Virus record (IMG/VR): IMGVR_UViG_3300032011_000148
Location: 1 to 22,510 of that record
Reading direction: 5' to 3' (one strand)
DNA from: a virus
DNA length: 22,510 nucleotides
The notes below the pieces were generated by a model that was given only the letters and a program-made list of their open reading frames with translations, made no database searches and was not told where the DNA came from. Both the position numbers and the translations under genes were made by a program. Position 1 is the stretch's first letter; each line of letters starts with the position of its first letter. Shown one piece after another: positions 2,246 through 22,510 of this stretch.

Positions 2246-5200
2246 TTATCTAAGCGGTCTCTCGTCCCAATCGTTCCAACGATTACCTCGTCCACCTCGT
2301 CTGCCATTTCCTCTTCTATTCTGTCCTCTCTCAGGACCCATTTCAACTAGGCCTCCGGCCCATACAGCTTGAGCTTCAGCTCCAGTTAGCCACCTTCTTG
2401 TTGTTTCTGAGGTTGCAGTAGGTTCTCCGACCCAATCTGTTTGCCAATTATTCCATACTGTTCCTAGAGCATTTCCTATTCCTTTTAATACAGTATCGTA
2501 ATCTCCTTCTACTGTTCTTCTAACTGAAGGTAATCTCTCTGAATCAAACCACATATCTTTAGAAGGACTTAATGTTACTGTACCATTAAATAATACAACA
2601 TCATATGGATTAACATATTCTGTTGTTGAAGCTTTACCAATAGTTATATAGGGTGATTCTGTAAAAGGTAATGTAATTAAATCACCTGTTTTTGTATATC
2701 CAGATGAACTACTTGCGTTTAATGATATATCAACAAATTTAGTATTATGTTGTGGTCTTAATTGTCCTATAGTTCTATCAACACCGATCTTATAATCTAC
2801 ATGATCAACATTTCCTACTTTATGACCTTTAAAGTTATCAGTTACAAATCCTGATTTAAACCTATCTAATCCGTCCGCGTCTTTAATGTTTTCCATATTT
2901 GTCTGCATTTCTAATGCATTAAAACTTGTTACTCTTTCAAGATTTTTAACTCTACCTTGGATTCTACCAATATCTTTCATTGTGAATCGTCTATGATCTT
3001 CTGATGTTACTACAACATCACTTAAAGATTTTGTATAAGGTGGAATCAGTAATGTATGTAATAATATTGAATTAGTTGGAGTTGCTGGTGGAGTTGGACT
3101 ATTGGCTGCAGTTCCTGTTGTTGTAATAAATCCACCATCTGAACTTAATGAAATCTTATCTATTCTTGGTAAGTAATGAACCATAGCTGTTGTTGACATT
3201 GATGTTTCACTCTGTGGTAAATCCATTGTTACAGCTCTTGCACTTGTAAATTCTTCTGTACCATATGCTAATGGATAATCTGTTATATCTGAAACATTAG
3301 TTTGAGATGCTACATTAAATGTACTTAATGTATGTAAAGAATGTACATAAGACCTGAAATCAACTGCATCAGCTAATTCAACTTGTCCATCTGCTTCTAT
3401 TCCTAATGGATCAATTATGTTTGGAATATAATTTGGTACTGCTGACCAATTTAAACCAGCATATGAATCAACTGTATAAAAACTTCCACCACCAGATGTA
3501 AAGTAATCAAATATTATTAATATGGTAGCTTGTGGTGTTGGTGCTCCAGCCTTTCTTTTAATTGAAGCTAAACCATAATAACCATCTCTTTGGCCATCAT
3601 CTAATACATAATTTTGTGTAATATCTTTTGAATCTATTGTTACGGCAGTACATTGTCTACTATTTGTAGCACTGTCTGTACTAGCTTCATTCTTTACTAC
3701 ATCACTTGTTGTAAAGGTTGTGTCTGTTAAATAATAAAAATATATGTCATTACTTGATTTTTGAATAACTCTACCTACTGCACCTGAAACACTACCTGTT
3801 ATTCTATCTCCTGCAGCACAAGCACCCATTCCACTTGCTAAAGTTAGCATAGGTGGTAAGGCATCTGTTGTGTCATTTGATTCATATACTCCTTTTAGAG
3901 CATATGCATCTGGAACACCTAATGTTATTATTTGATCTTTATAGTTTGTTCCATAAACTGCTGTATCATCAGTTGTAACTTTAACACCTATTGATTTGTT
4001 TAATGTTTTAGATGCAGTATTATTAGCTACATCTTTAGTAGCTCCATATACAATTTTAAGTTGATCTGAATTTGAAAGTGGAGTTGAGTTAGTAGCACTA
4101 ATTGATACTGCACCACCAGAACCACCTGCAGCTACTAAAACAGTTGCATGTTCTGTAATGTCTATTACATCTCCTTCATCTCCATCACCACCTTCTCCAT
4201 CTTCCATAATAGTAATCATATAATCATTAACATCTTCTGCTAATAATACTTCATCTGCAACTCCTGCTATTGAACCTGATCCACTACTTAATGTTACTGT
4301 AGCTTGTTTTCTAATTACCATTGAATTAGGTGTCATTGATGATACATAATCTTTTGGTGTAGGTGCTATTGCTATTGTTTTTTCTGGTTCCATTAATCGA
4401 GCTCTTTGTCTGAGGTACTTTCCGTTCTCAGCGACACCATTTCCTGTCAGCTCTATTGATGTATCACTTGTAATTGATGATACAATTTTTTCTGTTCCTG
4501 AAGGAGCTATTATAACATCTCCCTCTTTTAATTCTTGACTAAATTTAGTATTAACACCTGTTTGTGTTGGATCACCTGATGCTCCAACTACTGTTCCTGT
4601 TAATACATATTGACTGTCTGTTGTAGCTACATCAGCTGTAAAGTTTGCTGAGTTACTTGTTCTTGATGCTTGATAAAGACTTCTTACTCTATCTGATGAA
4701 TAAACCTTGATCGCTGAAACAGCTTTACCACCACTTGTATCATTTTCTTTTCTAAGCGTGTCTGCTGTAGAGAATGTTCCTTCTACATCCATTAACCAAG
4801 CTGTTGTACCTGATGCTCCGACATTTACTGCTATTGTTGCTTTAGCTCCTGAAACTGTTCCTTTAACTCTTTGTCCTGCTGTTAGTGCATATGATGTTGA
4901 TGCTACTGTAAGTTTAGTGAACATACGAACATCAAACAAGTATATACGGTGTTCTGACGCCGCTGTATGAACTCCTGAGCCTACTGTAGGACTAGTACAG
5001 TTAAAGTATCTTACTCTAGCTTTACCTATTAAATCTCCACTAGATGAATTATCAGCTTGATTAGCTTTTGCATCTGTATATAAATCAACTATTCCGAAAG
5101 GTGTAACTGCTGAATCACCTGTTCCAAATTCTGGTTGACCATAGACGCTATCAACTGTAAAATAATTTCCTATTTCAAAAGGAACGGCTAACGCACCAGC

Positions 5201-15346: not shown

Positions 15347-16630
15347 TTATGTCGCTGGAAGAGGTGAAACTACCTTGTTTTCAACTTCTTTAATGTGATC
15401 TGAAAAACTTAAATCAATACTCTTTGGAAATCCTATTAATCCTAGAAAAGTACAAAAATCACAACCTATCCATTGTGTTAATGCACCTAAACCAATAGCA
15501 TCAAAGAAAGAGGTTACTACTTCCATCCATTTTCTAAGTAAATAGAATTGATAGTTGTCTTTAAACCTTCCTATTTCTTCACATATTCTTTTCTTCTTTA
15601 AAGCTAAACACTCAACTGGATCATCAATAGGTCCACCTATTAAACTCATTACATCAAAGCCTGCTATTGAAAGTCCTTCTAATCCTTCAGTCATTGCATC
15701 GCCCATTTTATCGAATGCTGCTGTTTTAGCATTAGTTAAAGCCTCACCTGTTAATTCTCCTGCATCTAAAGATTCTATCTCAGCTGTAAACTTTGCTTTC
15801 TCAGCATCTACAACAGCTGAAATCATAGCTCCTACATCTAAACTTAATGGGATTGGTAATTCTGGTAATCCTAAAGCATCCCATATTAGATCAAACATAC
15901 TTATCAAACCACCAAACGCATCAAACAACATTCCTACTCCAAGTCCACTCATTTTAGATTCAAGAAAAGCTATAACAGCTTGACCCTTTAATTCTGAAAT
16001 TTCTAAACCTTCTTCACCACCAAATGACTGCCATTCAGGTGGAAGTATTGCATACAACGGGTCTATAATACTACCCTTCAATCCATTCACTTCATCCATA
16101 AACGCATCAACACCCATTGCTGCAGGATCAAGAGCCGCTATCTGTGCTTTGATATCTTCACCGTTACCTGTTAGTTCCGCTACTAACTTAGATTTATAAT
16201 CTTCATCAGTAACAAACTTAACTATATCAACACTAATCCCAAGTGGTGGAACAGGAACTTCAACTGTTATTGGTAAAATTTTAGTTATTAATTCTATCAT
16301 CTTAACTTGAAGAAAGACTGGATATTTCTGAAAGAGTTTGTCTATACCAATTTCAGCTCTTAGGTCTGGCCAGTCAATACTCTCAAAATTAGGAGCATCT
16401 ATTACATCTAAAATAGTTTCAACTACTTCTTTTAACTTGTCTACTTCTTCTGTTAATTTATCAACTTCATCTTGAGCCATGGTTGCTGCTTGAACTTCCA
16501 TCATAGCTCCTAGTTTAGCTGGCATAGCCGCTAACTGTTTAGTCATATTTTTCATGTTTGCCGGAGTCGGTAACATGACTGCTGGACACTCCATAGGCGG
16601 AATTTCAACGACTGCTATAGCTGTACTCAT
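15347..16630 (-). CDS. Unrecognised 427-aa baseplate-operon protein
   Basis: I do not recognise a T4 homologue. The protein lies between the gp5-like spike and gp25, with its ATG overlapping the gp5 stop (ATGA). The N-terminus is Met/Pro/Ala-rich. Residues 52-78 form a probable coiled coil (DEVDKLTEEVDKLKEVVETI). Residues 119-132 are Pro-rich (LPITVEVPVPPLGI). Residues 218-255 form a long hydrophobic, Gly-rich stretch (GLGVGMLFDAFGGLISMFDL) that is amphipathic rather than a clean transmembrane helix. The C-terminal third carries CLALKKKRICEEIGRFKDN (341-359) and a CDFC motif at 390-393 followed by TFLGLIGFPKSIDLSF. The largely helical composition contrasts with its beta-rich neighbours. Position suggests a hub accessory, chaperone or internal tail protein, perhaps filling the place of T4 gp26, gp28 or gp51; that is only inference. 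Confidence 0.75.
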   Translation of the reverse strand: MSTAIAVVEIPPMECPAVMLPTPANMKNMTKQLAAMPAKLGAMMEVQAATMAQDEVDKLTEEVDKLKEVVETILDVIDAPNFESIDWPDLRAEIGIDKLFQKYPVFLQVKMIELITKILPITVEVPVPPLGISVDIVKFVTDEDYKSKLVAELTGNGEDIKAQIAALDPAAMGVDAFMDEVNGLKGSIIDPLYAILPPEWQSFGGEEGLEISELKGQAVIAFLESKMSGLGVGMLFDAFGGLISMFDLIWDALGLPELPIPLSLDVGAMISAVVDAEKAKFTAEIESLDAGELTGEALTNAKTAAFDKMGDAMTEGLEGLSIAGFDVMSLIGGPIDDPVECLALKKKRICEEIGRFKDNYQFYLLRKWMEVVTSFFDAIGLGALTQWIGCDFCTFLGLIGFPKSIDLSFSDHIKEVENKVVSPLPAT

Positions 16631-18606
16631 TCTTGTAGCTTAACTTTCTTAACTGCTTTCATTATAACATCTTTAAGAGATGTTATTTTTGTCTCTCCTG
16701 ATGAAACTATATCAGTCTTACCTTGAGTAACTATTTTTACTCCATCACCTAGAGCATTCATAAGAATTTTTCCAGCGGACCTAATGTTTAAAGTTCCAAT
16801 TCCGTAATCATTTATATTAACATTCTTACCCTGTATATTAACATCTTGACCTCCTGCAGCCACCATGTGAATTTCACCTTTATTATTAATTTCTATTCGT
16901 GCACCTTTCCTATGAAATAAATTAATTCTTTCAAATCCTGGTGTATCATCTATTTCAACTACATGGCCTGATTCAGATTCGTAAACATGATTGAATGGAT
17001 ATTTTGGTTTTACCCATTCTCCTCTATCCTCATTTCTACCACCATCTTTGAGGGTACCATCAAATAAAGTTTTGTCATTCCCAGCAGTTCCACCTTCTTC
17101 GATAAAGTTATTTGGATAAATTTCTTCATTATATTTTCCATCTTGTCTAGCTAATTTGTTTACAGAAGATTCTCCTTCTTCTATATATTCTTCTTTAGGA
17201 TATCTTTGTCCTATCTCATCACCATCTCGTTTAGGTGAATTTTTTAAATCTAATTCTAATCCATAAGTTCTATTAGACATATGTTGAGGGTTTTTTCCAT
17301 CAGCAGTTCCTTTATATTGTTTGGATATTTTGCGTCGTGGATCTTGAAATCCTTCTGGAATATTTATATTTTCTTCATCAATTTCAGTTACAGTCACTTT
17401 GATTTGATTTACATTTTTAATATTTCCTATTGCTTTACCTTCTGGTATAGTGTCACTTACTGTATAACGCTCCATCTCACCGACATTATCAAACTGTAAT
17501 ATATCTCCAACAACATAGTTATCACCAGACACATTTTCTGGAGTTACTAGAAATTCTTCTATTTTACCATCTGGTCCTACAAGTATTTTAGCTGTAAACC
17601 CTTCTCCAGACTCCATCTGTCCAGTCTGTTCATTCTTTGTTTTAGTAGAAAATGTAGGAGTAATTGTAATATAGTTTTTTTCATCCCAACCTACTGCGGT
17701 TGCTTTAGCATGTGGTTCATCCTCATTCCTTAAATCTCCTACTTTTTTACCATCTGGTATGTCTGTAGCTCCTTCTTCATAGTCTATGCCACCACCTGAG
17801 AATGTAATTGTAGGAGCTTCTGTATAACCATATCCATAATTTGTTAATGTAACATCAAAGAGTTCTCCTCCACCTTCTTTACCAGGCTCTCTGATAGTAG
17901 CTCTACCAACAGCAGGTATACCACCATTTAAATTAGTATCTCCTACTTTTTTGCCTTCTGGTATAATACTTGCTTTTTTAACATCTCCAACTTGTTTACC
18001 TTCTGGTAGTTCATCTCCTTCTTCAAATAAAATCTCATCATCACTTTTTGTATAAACAGATGGAGAACTAATTGTTACTGTTGGAGCTGATTTATAAAAT
18101 CCACCTCTATCTTCTATCGTTACATCAGTTATTGTTCCTTTTATACCTGGACTTTTGATGTCTCCTGTAATTTCTATATTTTCTTCATCAACAGCAGTAA
18201 CAGGACCTTTAAATTGTTCATCATCAGTATTTTCAAATCTTTTTATTTTATCTTCTTTTCTTTTTCCCTTGTCATCTAAAGTTCTATCCAGCCTAATAGT
18301 CTTTGAAGGCTGTCCTATTAATGACCCCATAATTACAGGTTGTTGGTTAGCTGCACCATCTCTAAAAAATCCTATTACCCAAGATCCTTCAACAAGACCA
18401 TGCACTGTCGTACCTAATCCAGATATAGAAGAAGATGTTGTAGGCATCATTACTGTCGCCCATGGTAAATCTGGTGTAGCTATCTTTTGTTTATTTTCTG
18501 TATGAATACCAAATATTCTTACACGAACTCTATTCAAAGCTTTTGGATCATTCCTATCTTCAACAACCCCTGTAAACCATTCAAATCCATCTCTACCTTC
18601 AAACAT
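16627..18606 (-). CDS. gp5: gp5-like baseplate hub/spike protein without a recognisable lysozyme domain
   Basis: I place the start at ATG 18606 (659 residues). AGGAGG lies 6 bases upstream and the ATG overlaps the hub gene stop by 8 bases; the TTG five codons earlier is unlikely. Residues about 1-100 form an OB-fold-like domain typical of gp5/VgrG: FTGVVEDRNDPKALNRVRVR, PDLPWATVMMP, GLVEGSWVIGFFRDG and QQPVIMGSL. Residues about 156-410 hold three tandem repeat units instead of the T4 lysozyme. Residues about 540-659 look like a spike beta-helix: HVVEIDDTPG, INLFHRKGARIEI, then short V-x-I steps such as VNIQGKNVNIND and VKIVTQGKTDIVSSGETKI. In T4, gp5 trimerises on gp27 to form the membrane-piercing spike. 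I see no catalytic Glu motif of the T4 lysozyme type, so peptidoglycan-cutting activity is doubtful here. Confidence 0.92.
   Translation of the reverse strand: MFEGRDGFEWFTGVVEDRNDPKALNRVRVRIFGIHTENKQKIATPDLPWATVMMPTTSSSISGLGTTVHGLVEGSWVIGFFRDGAANQQPVIMGSLIGQPSKTIRLDRTLDDKGKRKEDKIKRFENTDDEQFKGPVTAVDEENIEITGDIKSPGIKGTITDVTIEDRGGFYKSAPTVTISSPSVYTKSDDEILFEEGDELPEGKQVGDVKKASIIPEGKKVGDTNLNGGIPAVGRATIREPGKEGGGELFDVTLTNYGYGYTEAPTITFSGGGIDYEEGATDIPDGKKVGDLRNEDEPHAKATAVGWDEKNYITITPTFSTKTKNEQTGQMESGEGFTAKILVGPDGKIEEFLVTPENVSGDNYVVGDILQFDNVGEMERYTVSDTIPEGKAIGNIKNVNQIKVTVTEIDEENINIPEGFQDPRRKISKQYKGTADGKNPQHMSNRTYGLELDLKNSPKRDGDEIGQRYPKEEYIEEGESSVNKLARQDGKYNEEIYPNNFIEEGGTAGNDKTLFDGTLKDGGRNEDRGEWVKPKYPFNHVYESESGHVVEIDDTPGFERINLFHRKGARIEINNKGEIHMVAAGGQDVNIQGKNVNINDYGIGTLNIRSAGKILMNALGDGVKIVTQGKTDIVSSGETKITSLKDVIMKAVKKVKLQE
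17377..18141 (-). repeat. Three tandem units with IPEGKxVGD motifs in gp5
   Basis: Each unit has a beta-hairpin (VTIEDRGGFYKSAPTVTIS; VTLTNYGYGYTEAPTITFSG; and a diverged third copy ending VVGDILQFDN). An acidic stretch and the motif follow: LPEGKQVGDVKK, IPEGKKVGDTN, IPDGKKVGDLRN and IPEGKAIGNIKN. A short strand closes the unit (VGRATI, AKATAV, IKVTVTEI). The first unit has the motif twice. The repeat is also visible at DNA level on the plus strand as recurrences of accttctggta and close variants. Confidence 0.75.
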
Positions 18607-20125
18607 TTCCTTCCTCCTCAAGACTTTTATCCTTAATCATACCTGGTAGTTTCACAGTTGTTGTTTCAATTCTATTCATTAATGAATCTTTAATACATCT
18701 AATATTAACTTTACATTGACTTAAAGCTAATTCCCATTGGATATCTGTAATTAAATATGTACCAGTATGAAAAACATTCTCTGCGGATGGATCACCTTCT
18801 CCAGCTTTAGCTACTGGTATTGCTAATTTAATCATTGCTCCTGCAGTTATATTAGTCCTAGCTGGCAATGTTACATTTAATGAATTATATTTAAGTAGTT
18901 GATCAACAGCTTGTCTATACATATATTTTCCTTTATCATTTCCTTCCGAAAGTCCTGTAAACCAATTGCTTCCACTTTCTTCATATGCATAAGGAGTATC
19001 ACTATTAAATATTACATTTGAATCTTTATAAGAACTTATAGGTTTTAACATACTAACAGTTGATACTATTGGTTCTGCAGACTCATCACCTTCAACTGCA
19101 CTTCCTGAATGTAATATTTCTGGCATTTCTCTAACTAATGGAAATTGTTTTGGTTCATCATCAGCTCCCTTATCTAGGTTTTTATTTGCATTAAACTTCG
19201 CATGATAGTTATAACTCTGTTCGTCCATCTGTTGATTAATTGGATCTATTGTTATTTGTTTTGAAGCAAAAAATCCATTGACTGTTCCTTCTAATACATT
19301 TGCTATAGACCCTATTTGATAACCTTGTATTCTTCTACCCATTCCCATTATCCCAATCTCTTTGCCTTCAACATCTGTTCCCGCAAAATCCCAACCAAGT
19401 AAGGTATCGTCCTTATCTACTAAAGGTGGTGTATATGCAAATAAAGGGATTCCTTCAGATGCTACGAAAGATTCGCGTTTAATCATTTTAGACATATTAC
19501 CAAACCTAAAACCACTATTAGCTGATTCATAAAAGAAATAGCTATCATGTAAAGCATCGTGTTCATCACACTCCTGTGCATTTTTACATAACCAATTGAT
19601 TGCATAGTTTACAGACCAGTTAGGAATAACTATATGACATGATTTAGATTCAGTTACATCTTTTTTATCTACCTCAATACCTAAATGATCTCTAGCTATT
19701 TTTTCTGCAGTGTCAATCATTCCACCTTTTAAGGCTTGATTGATTCTAATTCTTTTTGATTGTATAAGTTCTGGTGAACAAAATTTTAAATTATAAATTA
19801 AAGTATCTTGACCGCTTCTTTGAACTTCTCCTACATGATATATACGAAAAAGTTTATCTATTCTATGTTCTTGTGGTGCATCGTCATAACTTGTTCCATA
19901 TGGTGAACAAAATCTTAAATGTAAAGTTTCTTGACCAAATAACTTAGCATTTTCTAAAAAGCCTGTTCCATCTAATATGGATACTTCTCCTGATAAGAAA
20001 TTTTGAGTAATAGATTCATGGAGCTTAAGACCCATAAAAGCTTTTCTAATATCAAATCCGACTCCCTCATTATTAACAAGAGTTAAACACTCCAACTCGT
20101 ATTGAAAAGGATCATCCCAAATCAT
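18599..20125 (-). CDS. gp27-like baseplate central hub protein
   Basis: The 508-residue protein sits directly before the gp5-like spike gene with an 8-base overlap (ATGTTTGA), where a gp27 partner would be expected. The N-terminal third reads YELECLTLVNNEGVGFDIRK, LKLHESITQNFLSGEVSILD (33-52) and ETLHLRFCSP. It continues with LFRIYHVGEVQRSGQDTLIY (92-111) and LKFCSPELIQSKRIRINQA, the barrel-like organisation of hub proteins that mimic the tube. The C-terminus has LNVTLPARTNITAGAMIKL (416-434) and GTYLITDIQWELALSQCKVN (455-474), which reads like the closing strand of a gp27/VgrG-type hub domain. T4 gp27 is shorter (391). gp27 trimers join the six-fold tube to the three-fold spike. The identity rests on position and overall pattern; sequence similarity to T4 gp27 is not obvious. 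An AGAGG ribosome site lies upstream. Confidence 0.75.
   Translation of the reverse strand: MIWDDPFQYELECLTLVNNEGVGFDIRKAFMGLKLHESITQNFLSGEVSILDGTGFLENAKLFGQETLHLRFCSPYGTSYDDAPQEHRIDKLFRIYHVGEVQRSGQDTLIYNLKFCSPELIQSKRIRINQALKGGMIDTAEKIARDHLGIEVDKKDVTESKSCHIVIPNWSVNYAINWLCKNAQECDEHDALHDSYFFYESANSGFRFGNMSKMIKRESFVASEGIPLFAYTPPLVDKDDTLLGWDFAGTDVEGKEIGIMGMGRRIQGYQIGSIANVLEGTVNGFFASKQITIDPINQQMDEQSYNYHAKFNANKNLDKGADDEPKQFPLVREMPEILHSGSAVEGDESAEPIVSTVSMLKPISSYKDSNVIFNSDTPYAYEESGSNWFTGLSEGNDKGKYMYRQAVDQLLKYNSLNVTLPARTNITAGAMIKLAIPVAKAGEGDPSAENVFHTGTYLITDIQWELALSQCKVNIRCIKDSLMNRIETTTVKLPGMIKDKSLEEEGNV
18613..18618 (-). promoter_or_regulatory. Shine-Dalgarno AGGAGG that decides the gp5 start
   Basis: AGGAGG followed by AAGGAA precedes ATG 18606 with 6-base spacing. 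It is the strongest ribosome site in the window and is written inside the last codons of the hub gene (Glu-Glu-Glu-Gly). It excludes the upstream in-frame TTG at 18621, which would place the site inside the coding sequence. Confidence 0.8.
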
Positions 20126-20127
20126 AA

Positions 20128-20883
20128 TTAACCTCTTACTAAGTCTTTAAACTCTCTTACTATTTTTTGTACATATTGTGGTTGAATATATCTTATTTCA
20201 TGTTTATCTTCATTCACATCTCTTTCATAACTTAAATTTGATACAGCTGTATTTCCTGTTGATACTGTTGTTCTGAAATCGTTTGAATCTGTATAATGAT
20301 GAATTGCATTCTGTTCACTTACAACAGAAGATATTGTAAAACTCTTTCCTGAATCAGCACCTGTTGCTGTACTGTCAGCAGTAAAACTTCCAATAACACT
20401 ATTTAATGTAATTCTATTATGTGTCGGGTTTATATCAGTTATAAATCCATATACTGATGATGATTGTGAAACCTTTTCTCCTAATATAAATTTACGACTA
20501 GCTACTTGTTCATCTTCGGGTTTTGAATGATCGTATGAAACTATATCTGTTGATGAAGAAGCTTCTAAACAAGTACCTGGATATTTTCTATCCATAAATT
20601 TAACAAACAAAGAATTTGATTTAGGCCAATCACTCAAGTCTTGTAAATTTTCATTAACTAAAAAGAATAACCAATAAAGAGTACTATCTCCGTATAATCT
20701 ACCAGCCACAACATCAGGTCTTTCACCTTCTATTATTCTGTAATAACTATATCCTGTAATACCTTCTTGAAGATAACTCCATGTAGATACTTTACGAAAT
20801 AAATCTTTCGCTTGAAAAAATTTACCATCACTCTTAAAATCATAATAGATATCGGGTATATGTCGAAAAAATCCTGTTGCCAT
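20128..20883 (-). CDS. gp53: Baseplate wedge subunit gp53
   Basis: The N-terminal half carries gp53 family features: FRHIPDIYYDFKSDGKF (6-22), then YSYYRIIEGERPDVVAGRLY (45-64) and DSTLYWLFFLVNEN (66-79), a LysM-like fold, and DLSDWPKS. The C-terminus KHEIRYIQPQYVQKIVREFK (227-246) fits the family's closing helix. gp53 clamps gp6, gp7 and gp25 together in the wedge. At 251 residues it is longer than T4 gp53 (196). The excess lies around residues 130-188, which carry a GEKVSQSSSVYGFI, then D..HNRITL...G.F unit resembling the module seen in gp8 and the gp7-like protein. The start has AAGGAG seven bases upstream and follows the gp48 stop by 3 bases. Confidence 0.93.
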   Translation of the reverse strand: MATGFFRHIPDIYYDFKSDGKFFQAKDLFRKVSTWSYLQEGITGYSYYRIIEGERPDVVAGRLYGDSTLYWLFFLVNENLQDLSDWPKSNSLFVKFMDRKYPGTCLEASSSTDIVSYDHSKPEDEQVASRKFILGEKVSQSSSVYGFITDINPTHNRITLNSVIGSFTADSTATGADSGKSFTISSVVSEQNAIHHYTDSNDFRTTVSTGNTAVSNLSYERDVNEDKHEIRYIQPQYVQKIVREFKDLVRG

Positions 20884-20886
20884 AGT

Positions 20887-22510
20887 TTACTCCTTATTAC
20901 CGAATAAAATACCATAATCAACTTGTAAATAACCACTCTCATGTGTAGATACTACATTAGGTATATGTGCAACTTCTTGTGCAGTAACTCCGATTTCTGG
21001 ATCGGTTATTCCAAGAGATTGTGCTATATTATTCCAAGTCCAACTATAGATATTATGTCCTTGATATTGACCTAGTAGTGTGATATTATCTTTTAATGCA
21101 GTATCACTCCTTAAAAGAGAATCACTATGCTGCATCCGTTGTATGATGTAAAACTCCTTGTCTATCTGTTCTTGAGATTTTTCAGGAGGTTCAGGAGGTC
21201 CAACAAATCCTTGTTCATTAGATCCATCCGTTAAATACTCAGCTACTGGACCATATATATCAGGACTCAGCTGAGTTGTTCTGTCAGCAGCTATTCTGTT
21301 ACCTCCGGCCGCCGAATATGCGGAAACCTGTCTTTCATATTTTTGTCTTGACATTTGAGTTGTTTCTTTAAAGGTTAATGTCAGTTCAATAGCTTGTGGT
21401 GAACCATCTTCCATAAGTGCATATCCACCCCCTGCAGCATAATTAACATCACATGATTCAAGTGCAACAGTTAATGGAAAGTCAATCCATCTTTTGATAG
21501 GTCCTTGAAATTTAATTAACCATTCATTTGGCATAGTCCAAATTCTGTCATTATTTCCAGCTGTGCCTGGTAACATTGAAACTTTAAATGCATGAATAAT
21601 ATGTCTAATAGTTTGTGCTTCTAGTGTTGATGAAGGTTTTAATGTAAATTTATAAGTATAACTTCTGAACTCTAAACCAGTGAATGATTGAAACTTCATC
21701 GGATTTGATATAGCGCCTGCAGCTCTTTGTATAATAGCTCCTCCTGGTAACATTCCTTGAAACATTTTCATTACTTCAGACATATCAAAACCTCTATTAC
21801 CCATTAAATCATCAGTAGTACCATCACCACCAGTAAACAATCTTGCAAAGAAAGTATCTACCATTCCACCTTCAGCTGATTCATAAGTAACTTTAATTCC
21901 ATCACCCAAATCATGTGGAAGATATAAGAAAATATCAAACACTTCTTCATTAGCGGGATCATTAGCTTTTGATTTTGTTTCTTCTGTTTCATTAGACCAC
22001 CAACCTAGAGTTGTATCAACTTTTGGTCTAGGCAATGATCTAAAATGTATTGAATTAGGAAAGGCCATAGTTTGTGCTTTATATGATTCTTTCAGGTTTT
22101 GGGCCTTTGCTCCGGCCTGTTCCTCGGATCCAGGCTTAAAACAATTTTCATCTAATAAATTAGCGTTATATCCTGTTGACCTTCCTTTTTCATTAAAAAA
22201 GTGTTCAGGAAAGACTAATACTGTTTGTTTTTTAGGTACAGCTGCAGCCCCTTTTCTCTCTGCACTTTGGTTCAAAGCTAAGGTTCTTTCTTCATAAGCT
22301 CTTTTGTTAGCGTCTTTTACTTTTTGTGAAATGTCATGGATATTAGATGTTCTAACACCTATTGCTCCACTTAATAAATCTGTTAAACCATCTCCTACTC
22401 TTTGATCAAATCTATTTGATAGATTTCTGCCTATACCAAATTTGCTTGTAAGTGAATTACCATCTCCCGCGGTCGATTGTATAATTGGTCTATCTTTAGA
22501 TGAAGTTCCA
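20887..22510 (-). CDS. gp48: gp48-like baseplate tail-tube cap protein with C-terminal S74-like domain (5' end missing)
   Basis: The frame stays open from the stop at 20887 to the right edge (540 codons visible) with no in-frame ATG, so the N-terminus lies outside. The in-frame TTG at 22275 has no ribosome site and is not a credible start. The core matches the T4 gp48/gp54 tube-cap family: EVFDIFLYLPHDLGDGIKVT, then NPMKFQSFTGLEFRSYTYKF, LKPSSTLEAQTIRHIIHAFK, WTMPNEWLIKF and PQAIELTLTFKET. In T4, gp48 caps the hub and starts the tail tube. The protein is much longer than T4 gp48 (364). After the core there is a Pro/Glu linker (GPPEPPEKSQEQ) and then a domain that looks like the autoprocessing chaperone of tail fibres. 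The gene lies 3 bases before gp53, consistent with one operon. Confidence 0.88.
   Translation of the reverse strand, partial: GTSSKDRPIIQSTAGDGNSLTSKFGIGRNLSNRFDQRVGDGLTDLLSGAIGVRTSNIHDISQKVKDANKRAYEERTLALNQSAERKGAAAVPKKQTVLVFPEHFFNEKGRSTGYNANLLDENCFKPGSEEQAGAKAQNLKESYKAQTMAFPNSIHFRSLPRPKVDTTLGWWSNETEETKSKANDPANEEVFDIFLYLPHDLGDGIKVTYESAEGGMVDTFFARLFTGGDGTTDDLMGNRGFDMSEVMKMFQGMLPGGAIIQRAAGAISNPMKFQSFTGLEFRSYTYKFTLKPSSTLEAQTIRHIIHAFKVSMLPGTAGNNDRIWTMPNEWLIKFQGPIKRWIDFPLTVALESCDVNYAAGGGYALMEDGSPQAIELTLTFKETTQMSRQKYERQVSAYSAAGGNRIAADRTTQLSPDIYGPVAEYLTDGSNEQGFVGPPEPPEKSQEQIDKEFYIIQRMQHSDSLLRSDTALKDNITLLGQYQGHNIYSWTWNNIAQSLGITDPEIGVTAQEVAHIPNVVSTHESGYLQVDYGILFGNKE
20890..21108 (-). other. Peptidase_S74-like (intramolecular chaperone) domain at the gp48 C-terminus
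   Basis: The last 73 residues follow the order of the S74 chaperone family: SDTALKDNITLLG, GHNIYSWTWN, GVTAQEV, a P..V segment and GYLQVDYGILFG. In the family the motif is SD.RLK.NI, W.WN, GV.AQEV and GY..VDY. The Ser (codon 21106..21108) and Lys (21091..21093) are five residues apart, the spacing of the autocleavage pair known from endosialidase tail spikes. The usual Arg of SDxRLK is Ala here. Confidence 0.8.

Follow-up and report, generated by a model that had tools for sequence, protein, structure and literature searches.

The window, meaning the whole stretch of 22,510 nucleotides analysed here, ends inside a gene of the minus strand. The open frame (20890-22509) comprises 540 amino acids and is closed by a stop codon at 20887-20889. 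The ATG of this gp48 gene lies just past the end of the window and is seen at G001:3383, a position of the 46.6-kb contig G001, in which the full gene occupies 3383-5008 (541 aa). The features of the locus are the following:

20887..22509, minus strand: gp48-like tail-tube cap gene with a C-terminal S74 domain, from codon 2 to the stop codon
21325..22509, minus strand: gp48 core, residues 1-395 (alignments A1 and A3)
21325-21663, minus strand: well-modelled tube-like domain, residues 283-395 (AF2 pLDDT block means of 69-93 over residues 281-390)
21109..21324, minus strand: linker, residues 396-467 (AF2 pLDDT; the gp48 of most isolates stops near residue 395)
20890..21108, minus strand: short S74 domain (residues 468-540) that lacks a C-terminal coiled coil (Pfam, PHROG, AF2, BFVD)
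21106..21108, minus strand: Ser468, predicted nucleophile, aligned with MyRF S587 and endoNF S911 (PMC8326128) and invariant in alignment A8
21091..21093, minus strand: Lys473, predicted general base, aligned with MyRF K592 and endoNF K916 (PMC8326128) and invariant in A8
21031-21048, minus strand: YSWTWN motif
20971..20991, minus strand: GVTAQEV motif
20914..20934, minus strand: GYLQVDY motif; the protein ends 8 residues on, where a trimerising helix follows in full-length S74 domains
20128..20883, minus strand: gp53-like baseplate wedge gene, directly downstream of gp48 (PF11246, 3.4e-8; phrog_232, 1.9e-28)

A previous sequence-only reading had described the S74 motifs as lying in order in one open frame, with a spacing of five residues between the Ser and the Lys. 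Translation of the frame bore this out, Ser468 being followed by Lys473 at that distance.

Concerning the upstream part of the protein, PHROG profiles identified it as gp48-like (phrog_230, "baseplate tail tube cap", 1.8e-32), and its core aligns with gp48 of isolate phages. The gene is flanked by a gp4-like head-closure gene and by gp53, and its gp48 context is fixed because the gp53-like wedge gene lies directly downstream. Foldseek searches with the well-predicted part of the AF2 model retrieved the baseplate cup of Klebsiella phage KP1 (9f4b and 9f4a) and T4 (9mkb), as well as chain 5iv5_BE of the T4 baseplate, at 3.8 A and with a TM of 0.74 on the target. Profile, modelled fold and gene order place this protein in the T4 gp48 tail-tube cap family. 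After the core, linker residues 400-436 have a pLDDT below 50 in AF2, followed by the stretch PPEPPEK and a predicted helix at residues 446-465, and YIIQRMQHSDSLLR precedes Ser468. The whole-protein AF2 run left the S74 part unmodelled because its alignment had no S74 rows.

The rarity of the fusion among relatives would be in line with a frame error or a chimeric assembly that joined gp48 to a separate S74 gene, but this explanation is extremely improbable. The window aligned with G001 over 22,509 bases at 99.96% identity, and pieces of it aligned with three further contigs (L014, L015 and L016) at 99.86-99.97%. A read error between about positions 21110 and 21250, which the sequence-only reading had raised as an objection to its own claim, is unlikely because the same frame continues through the S74 part in three other contigs (G001, L014 and L015) from three other metagenomes, at about 99.9% DNA identity. 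A convincing start for a free-standing S74 gene was not found either: translation from the in-frame ATG at 21133-21135 was considered and rejected, as the nearest AAGGAG is 18 nt upstream, too far away.

The last 100 residues were searched against Peptidase_S74 (PF13884), as had been proposed, and scored 22.6 bits (E 1.3e-4), above the curated cut-off of 22 bits. The score was 22.7 bits in the genome search and 21.0 bits, just under the cut-off, when the whole protein was used. PHROG matches were obtained with phrog_4287 (1.3e-9) and phrog_6121 (4.8e-8), and as a sequence comparison the S74 match is beyond chance. When a profile built from an alignment of 40 short S74 domains was compared with the PDB, the five best matches were all S74 proteins, namely MyRF (7dc3, 7.5e-5), a long tail fibre (6f45), the GA-1 neck appendage (3gud), a tail spike (6eu4) and a tail fibre (8jov), of which only the first three were below 0.01 and the last two above it. 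A direct phmmer search of the sequence against the PDB found nothing. Regarding the fold, the monomeric AF2 model of this S74 reached a pLDDT of 84.6 (about 87-94 over most of the domain) and a pTM of 0.72. Its matches in BFVD (best E 6e-7, TM up to 0.76) included proteins that bear the name "intramolecular chaperone auto-processing domain". The same model gave no match at E<=0.001 to solved structures in Foldseek. The profile match, the SDxxxK motif, and a C-terminus with GVxAQEV followed by GYLxVDY mark the region as a Peptidase_S74 domain.

In published descriptions, S74 domains assist fibres and spikes in forming trimers, and the example studied best does so by means of a coiled coil at its C-terminus. 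The domain had been read as showing the full motif order of Peptidase_S74 and as a fibre-type S74 fused to a tube cap. The globular core motifs, the position on gp48 and the Ser-Lys pair were confirmed; the C-terminal coiled-coil helix is absent, and the domain is not of the fibre type, having no trimerising helix and having its relatives on ejection proteins. The protein ends 8 residues after GYLQVDY, AF2 models only a 5-residue helix, and no beta-helical or fibrous stalk precedes the S74 part, where the tube-cap core is followed by the low-confidence linker and a helix. The domain lacks both the coiled coil and the stalk of the classical trimerising intramolecular chaperones (CIMCD/ICA). In MyRF, trimerisation is driven by the C-terminal coiled-coil helix, and mutations in the coiled coil block both the trimer and cleavage (PMC8326128). 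Since the helix needed for both is missing in gp48, trimer-guided folding is not directly transferable to its S74 domain. It is therefore very unlikely that the domain works as a classical fibre-type chaperone that trimerises by itself and then self-cuts, although the profile match and the Ser-Lys spacing of five would fit; besides the missing coiled coil and stalk, its closest relatives are on ejection proteins and far from the S74 domains of the phage's own fibres. With fibre g19 it shares about 31% identity (E 0.015), and with g28 there is no meaningful match. An own-fibre origin of the domain was ruled out by these values and by the place of g19 as the farthest tip of the tree.

The closest isolate relatives of the domain found by tblastn were in Pseudomonas phage AH02 gp11 (47%, 3e-11), Vibrio phage 199E37-1 (46%) and Roseobacter phage CRP-235 (43%), and many isolate matches are in the P22 gene-7 position or are annotated as DNA injection or ejection proteins. 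Identities ranged over 33-49% for isolates and reached up to 62% for metagenome loci. A scan of viral contigs yielded 80 loci; other short S74 domains, always at the C-terminus, were present in 77. The loci retrieved contain 78 distinct S74 frames, and 75 of these have the short form, which ends no more than about 20 aa after YxxL and has no coiled coil; of the remaining three, two are copies of fibre g19 and the third is a long S74. Among the 39 parent proteins scanned, 31 matched phrog_4287 ("DNA ejection protein") and 30 phrog_6121, partly via the shared S74 domain itself. When the baseplate and hub proteins of the window were compared with the short-S74 loci, gp48 alone matched, essentially over its S74 part. 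In a FastTree phylogeny the gp48 domain was nested among ejection-protein domains, with support of 0.83 and 0.89 for two enclosing nodes and 0.18-0.69 for the others, and g19 was the most distant tip. By form and by inferred tree, the gp48 S74 groups with the short S74 domains of DNA-ejection proteins. The parent is nevertheless gp48, and the hydrophobic or Gly/Ala-rich stretch expected before the Ser in an ejection-protein parent is not present.

Several side observations concern this family. It is large and coherent, it occupies the C-termini of DNA-ejection-like proteins (L132-L208), and its Ser-Asp...Lys is invariant in the aligned set. One viral contig (L135) carries a long coiled-coil S74 protein together with a short-S74 ejection-like protein; L193, L198, L200 and CRP-235 (L020) encode proteins of about 840-880 aa with a C-terminal short S74, and one member of the scanned parent set has a LysM domain. 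In the literature searched, no description was found of self-processing in short-S74 ejection-like proteins. Separately, phrog_8215 ("baseplate wedge initiator") was discarded as a precedent for S74 in a baseplate: fibre g19 (L012:6322-8721) matches it over about 475 residues, so it is apparently a family of fibres whose name misleads.

With regard to catalysis, SDxxxK keeps its Ser, Asp and Lys without exception in A8, that is, in 40 of 40 aligned short S74 domains that are 36-54% identical to that of the window, and also in 10 sequences including nine isolate phages. The pattern used to search for short S74 loci covered the G..YxWxW stretch only, with SDxxxK not imposed, and invariance outside this pattern argues for retained chemistry, as judged from the alignments. 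Ser and Lys could also be conserved for folding alone. In MyRF, S587A and K592A abolish cleavage, while R590A only impairs it and partial cutting remains (PMC8326128); the catalytic motif has been given as SDxxxK, and S782A loses cutting (PMC10769870). The Arg position, two before the Lys, varies among short S74 domains (SDPSLK, SDESLK, SDIALK, SDPALK, SDPKLK, SDMALK). The replacement of this Arg by Ala had been put forward as a doubt on cleavage. This doubt is weak, since Ala is common to other short S74 domains (SDIALK, SDPALK, SDMALK), the published motif leaves the position free and the corresponding MyRF mutant still cuts partly. The missing Arg is not diagnostic for cleavage.

Whether the fusion is common in related marine phages had been left as a question, and the survey answers that it is rare. 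S74 was found on gp48 in one of 43 clusters, this phage's own; the clusters, at 95%, represent 54 gp48 frames with a complete C-terminus, isolate genes included. The frames were gathered by scans with gp6, gp48, gp27-like and gp53 (gp6 identity being 53-94% for the closer relatives), all of which gave S74 only in copies of the same population, so a widespread fusion among relatives was rejected. A gp48 match was obtained in 108 isolate phage records; at no place did it cover 80% of the query and, among the matches listed, none reaches the S74 part. A scan of bacterial and archaeal genomes found no gp48 relative. The closest gp48 (L127, 52% identical) is on a contig that ends inside the gene, before the C-terminus. 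The fusion is thus known from one marine T4-like phage population, and among titles and abstracts of the literature on S74 with gp48 or ejection, none describes a gp48-S74 fusion.

After the gp48 core, relatives carry tails of 0-91 residues, variable in length and sequence and often of low complexity, which are apparently disordered. Such tails, and the single cluster with S74, are what would be expected if the domain had been grafted by chance onto a C-terminus that tolerates almost any small folded domain, and did little or nothing there. This is unlikely, given that the 73-residue domain is intact, keeps all conserved residues and is identical in four contigs. Moreover, its GC content (0.333) matches that of the core (0.349), and there is therefore no sign of a very recent insertion.

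The genes around gp48 form a mosaic:

15347-20883 of the window, and G001:903-12847: mosaic hub region, with divergent gp48, g9, gp5 and gp25 interleaved with gp53, g11 and gp6

Compared with the sister contig L039, identity is high for gp53 (92%), g11 (89%), gp6 (94%) and g14 (97%), whereas gp48 (46%), the gp27-like g9 (47%), gp5 (52%) and gp25 (75%) are divergent. Between L039 and L042, gp48 and g9 are 77% and 80% identical. Judging by these identities, gp48, gp27-like and gp5 seem to have been exchanged together, even though native genes lie between them, suggesting that the S74-bearing gp48 arrived with the swapped hub set. This set may also include the tail tube (54% identical to that of L042) and g3, a gene of the baseplate hub (63%). 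The g11 gene, between gp5 and gp25 (window 15347-16630, 427 aa), has no convincing family match; it was not found in L040 or L042.

In this gp48, the S74 domain of 73 residues and a linker of about 70 residues stand in place of the variable, probably disordered tail of relatives. The reading preferred here, with a probability of roughly 45%, is that the S74 domain could be a tethered assembly aid, located outside the tube wall and predicted to cut itself off once the ring forms. T4 gp48 is listed at six copies (PMC3004832). Six gp48 proteins would gather on the hub, and their linkers would let the S74 domains meet at a high local concentration, so that the gp48 ring would supply the oligomerisation otherwise given by the missing helix. 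The Ser-Lys pair would then cut just before Ser468 and release a domain of about 8 kDa, leaving gp48 with a free linker, and gp54 and the tube would stack on top. The in-frame fusion in four contigs, the conserved SDxxxK and the flexible linker predicted by AF2 are in favour of self-cutting. This reading is weakened because MyRF without coiled-coil contacts neither trimerises nor cleaves (PMC8326128), and the gp48 S74 has no such helix. The lack of a Foldseek match between the monomer model and solved structures at E<=0.001, and a possible conservation of Ser and Lys for folding only, also speak against it.

The same absence is consistent with a domain that is not cut and remains attached, small and folded, where tube and baseplate meet, perhaps serving neighbouring parts of the hub, wedge or tape measure in docking or solubility. 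This is quite possible, nearly as likely as self-cutting: AF2 folds the S74 confidently as a single chain, and the linker could place it outside the ring. However, a purely structural role does not obviously require a Ser and a Lys that are invariant in all 40 short S74 domains, and six extra domains of about 8 kDa at a crowded junction would have a steric cost.

It is conceivable, though rather doubtful, that short S74 domains are a distinct class, self-cutting without a coiled coil of their own via the oligomer of the parent, and that they act as release-on-assembly checkpoints on parts of the DNA path (ejection proteins and tube cap); the gp48 fusion would then be the first example from the baseplate of a contractile tail. 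A helix-less S74 with an intact catalytic pair on a ring-forming cap offers a clean test of the chemistry on a borrowed oligomer, and of possible cutting, in the course of assembly, of the tails of ejection proteins, which are a conserved class. From the fusion it is also clear that a folded domain can be accommodated at the C-terminus of gp48.

In comparison with known systems, this protein shares with T4 gp48/gp54 the tube-cap fold and, as seen in relatives, the gene order head closure-gp48-gp53, but the gp48 of most isolates stops after the core and carries no folded domain at its C-terminus, and among the 43 gp48 clusters surveyed only that of this phage has a tube cap fused to an ejection-type S74. 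With endoNF, the T5 L-shaped fibre, GA-1 gp12 and MyRF, it shares the Ser-Lys dyad, the core motifs and profile similarity (3gud, 7dc3, 6f45); unlike it, classical ICA domains trimerise, in MyRF mainly via the C-terminal coiled-coil helix, and sit after beta-helical stalks. The phage's own fibre domains (G001 g19 and g28) are S74 domains of the same genome with Ser and Lys present, but they are full-length and have long helix-like C-terminal ends. The S74 domains of P22-type ejection proteins (AH02 gp11, 199E37-1, CRP-235; phrog_4287, phrog_6121) share SDxxxK, YxWxWN, GVxAQxV and GYxxV[DN]Y in order, lie at the extreme C-terminus and end no more than about 20 aa past the last motif; they usually follow a Gly/Ala-rich or hydrophobic stretch, whereas the gp48 S74 follows a proline-containing linker.
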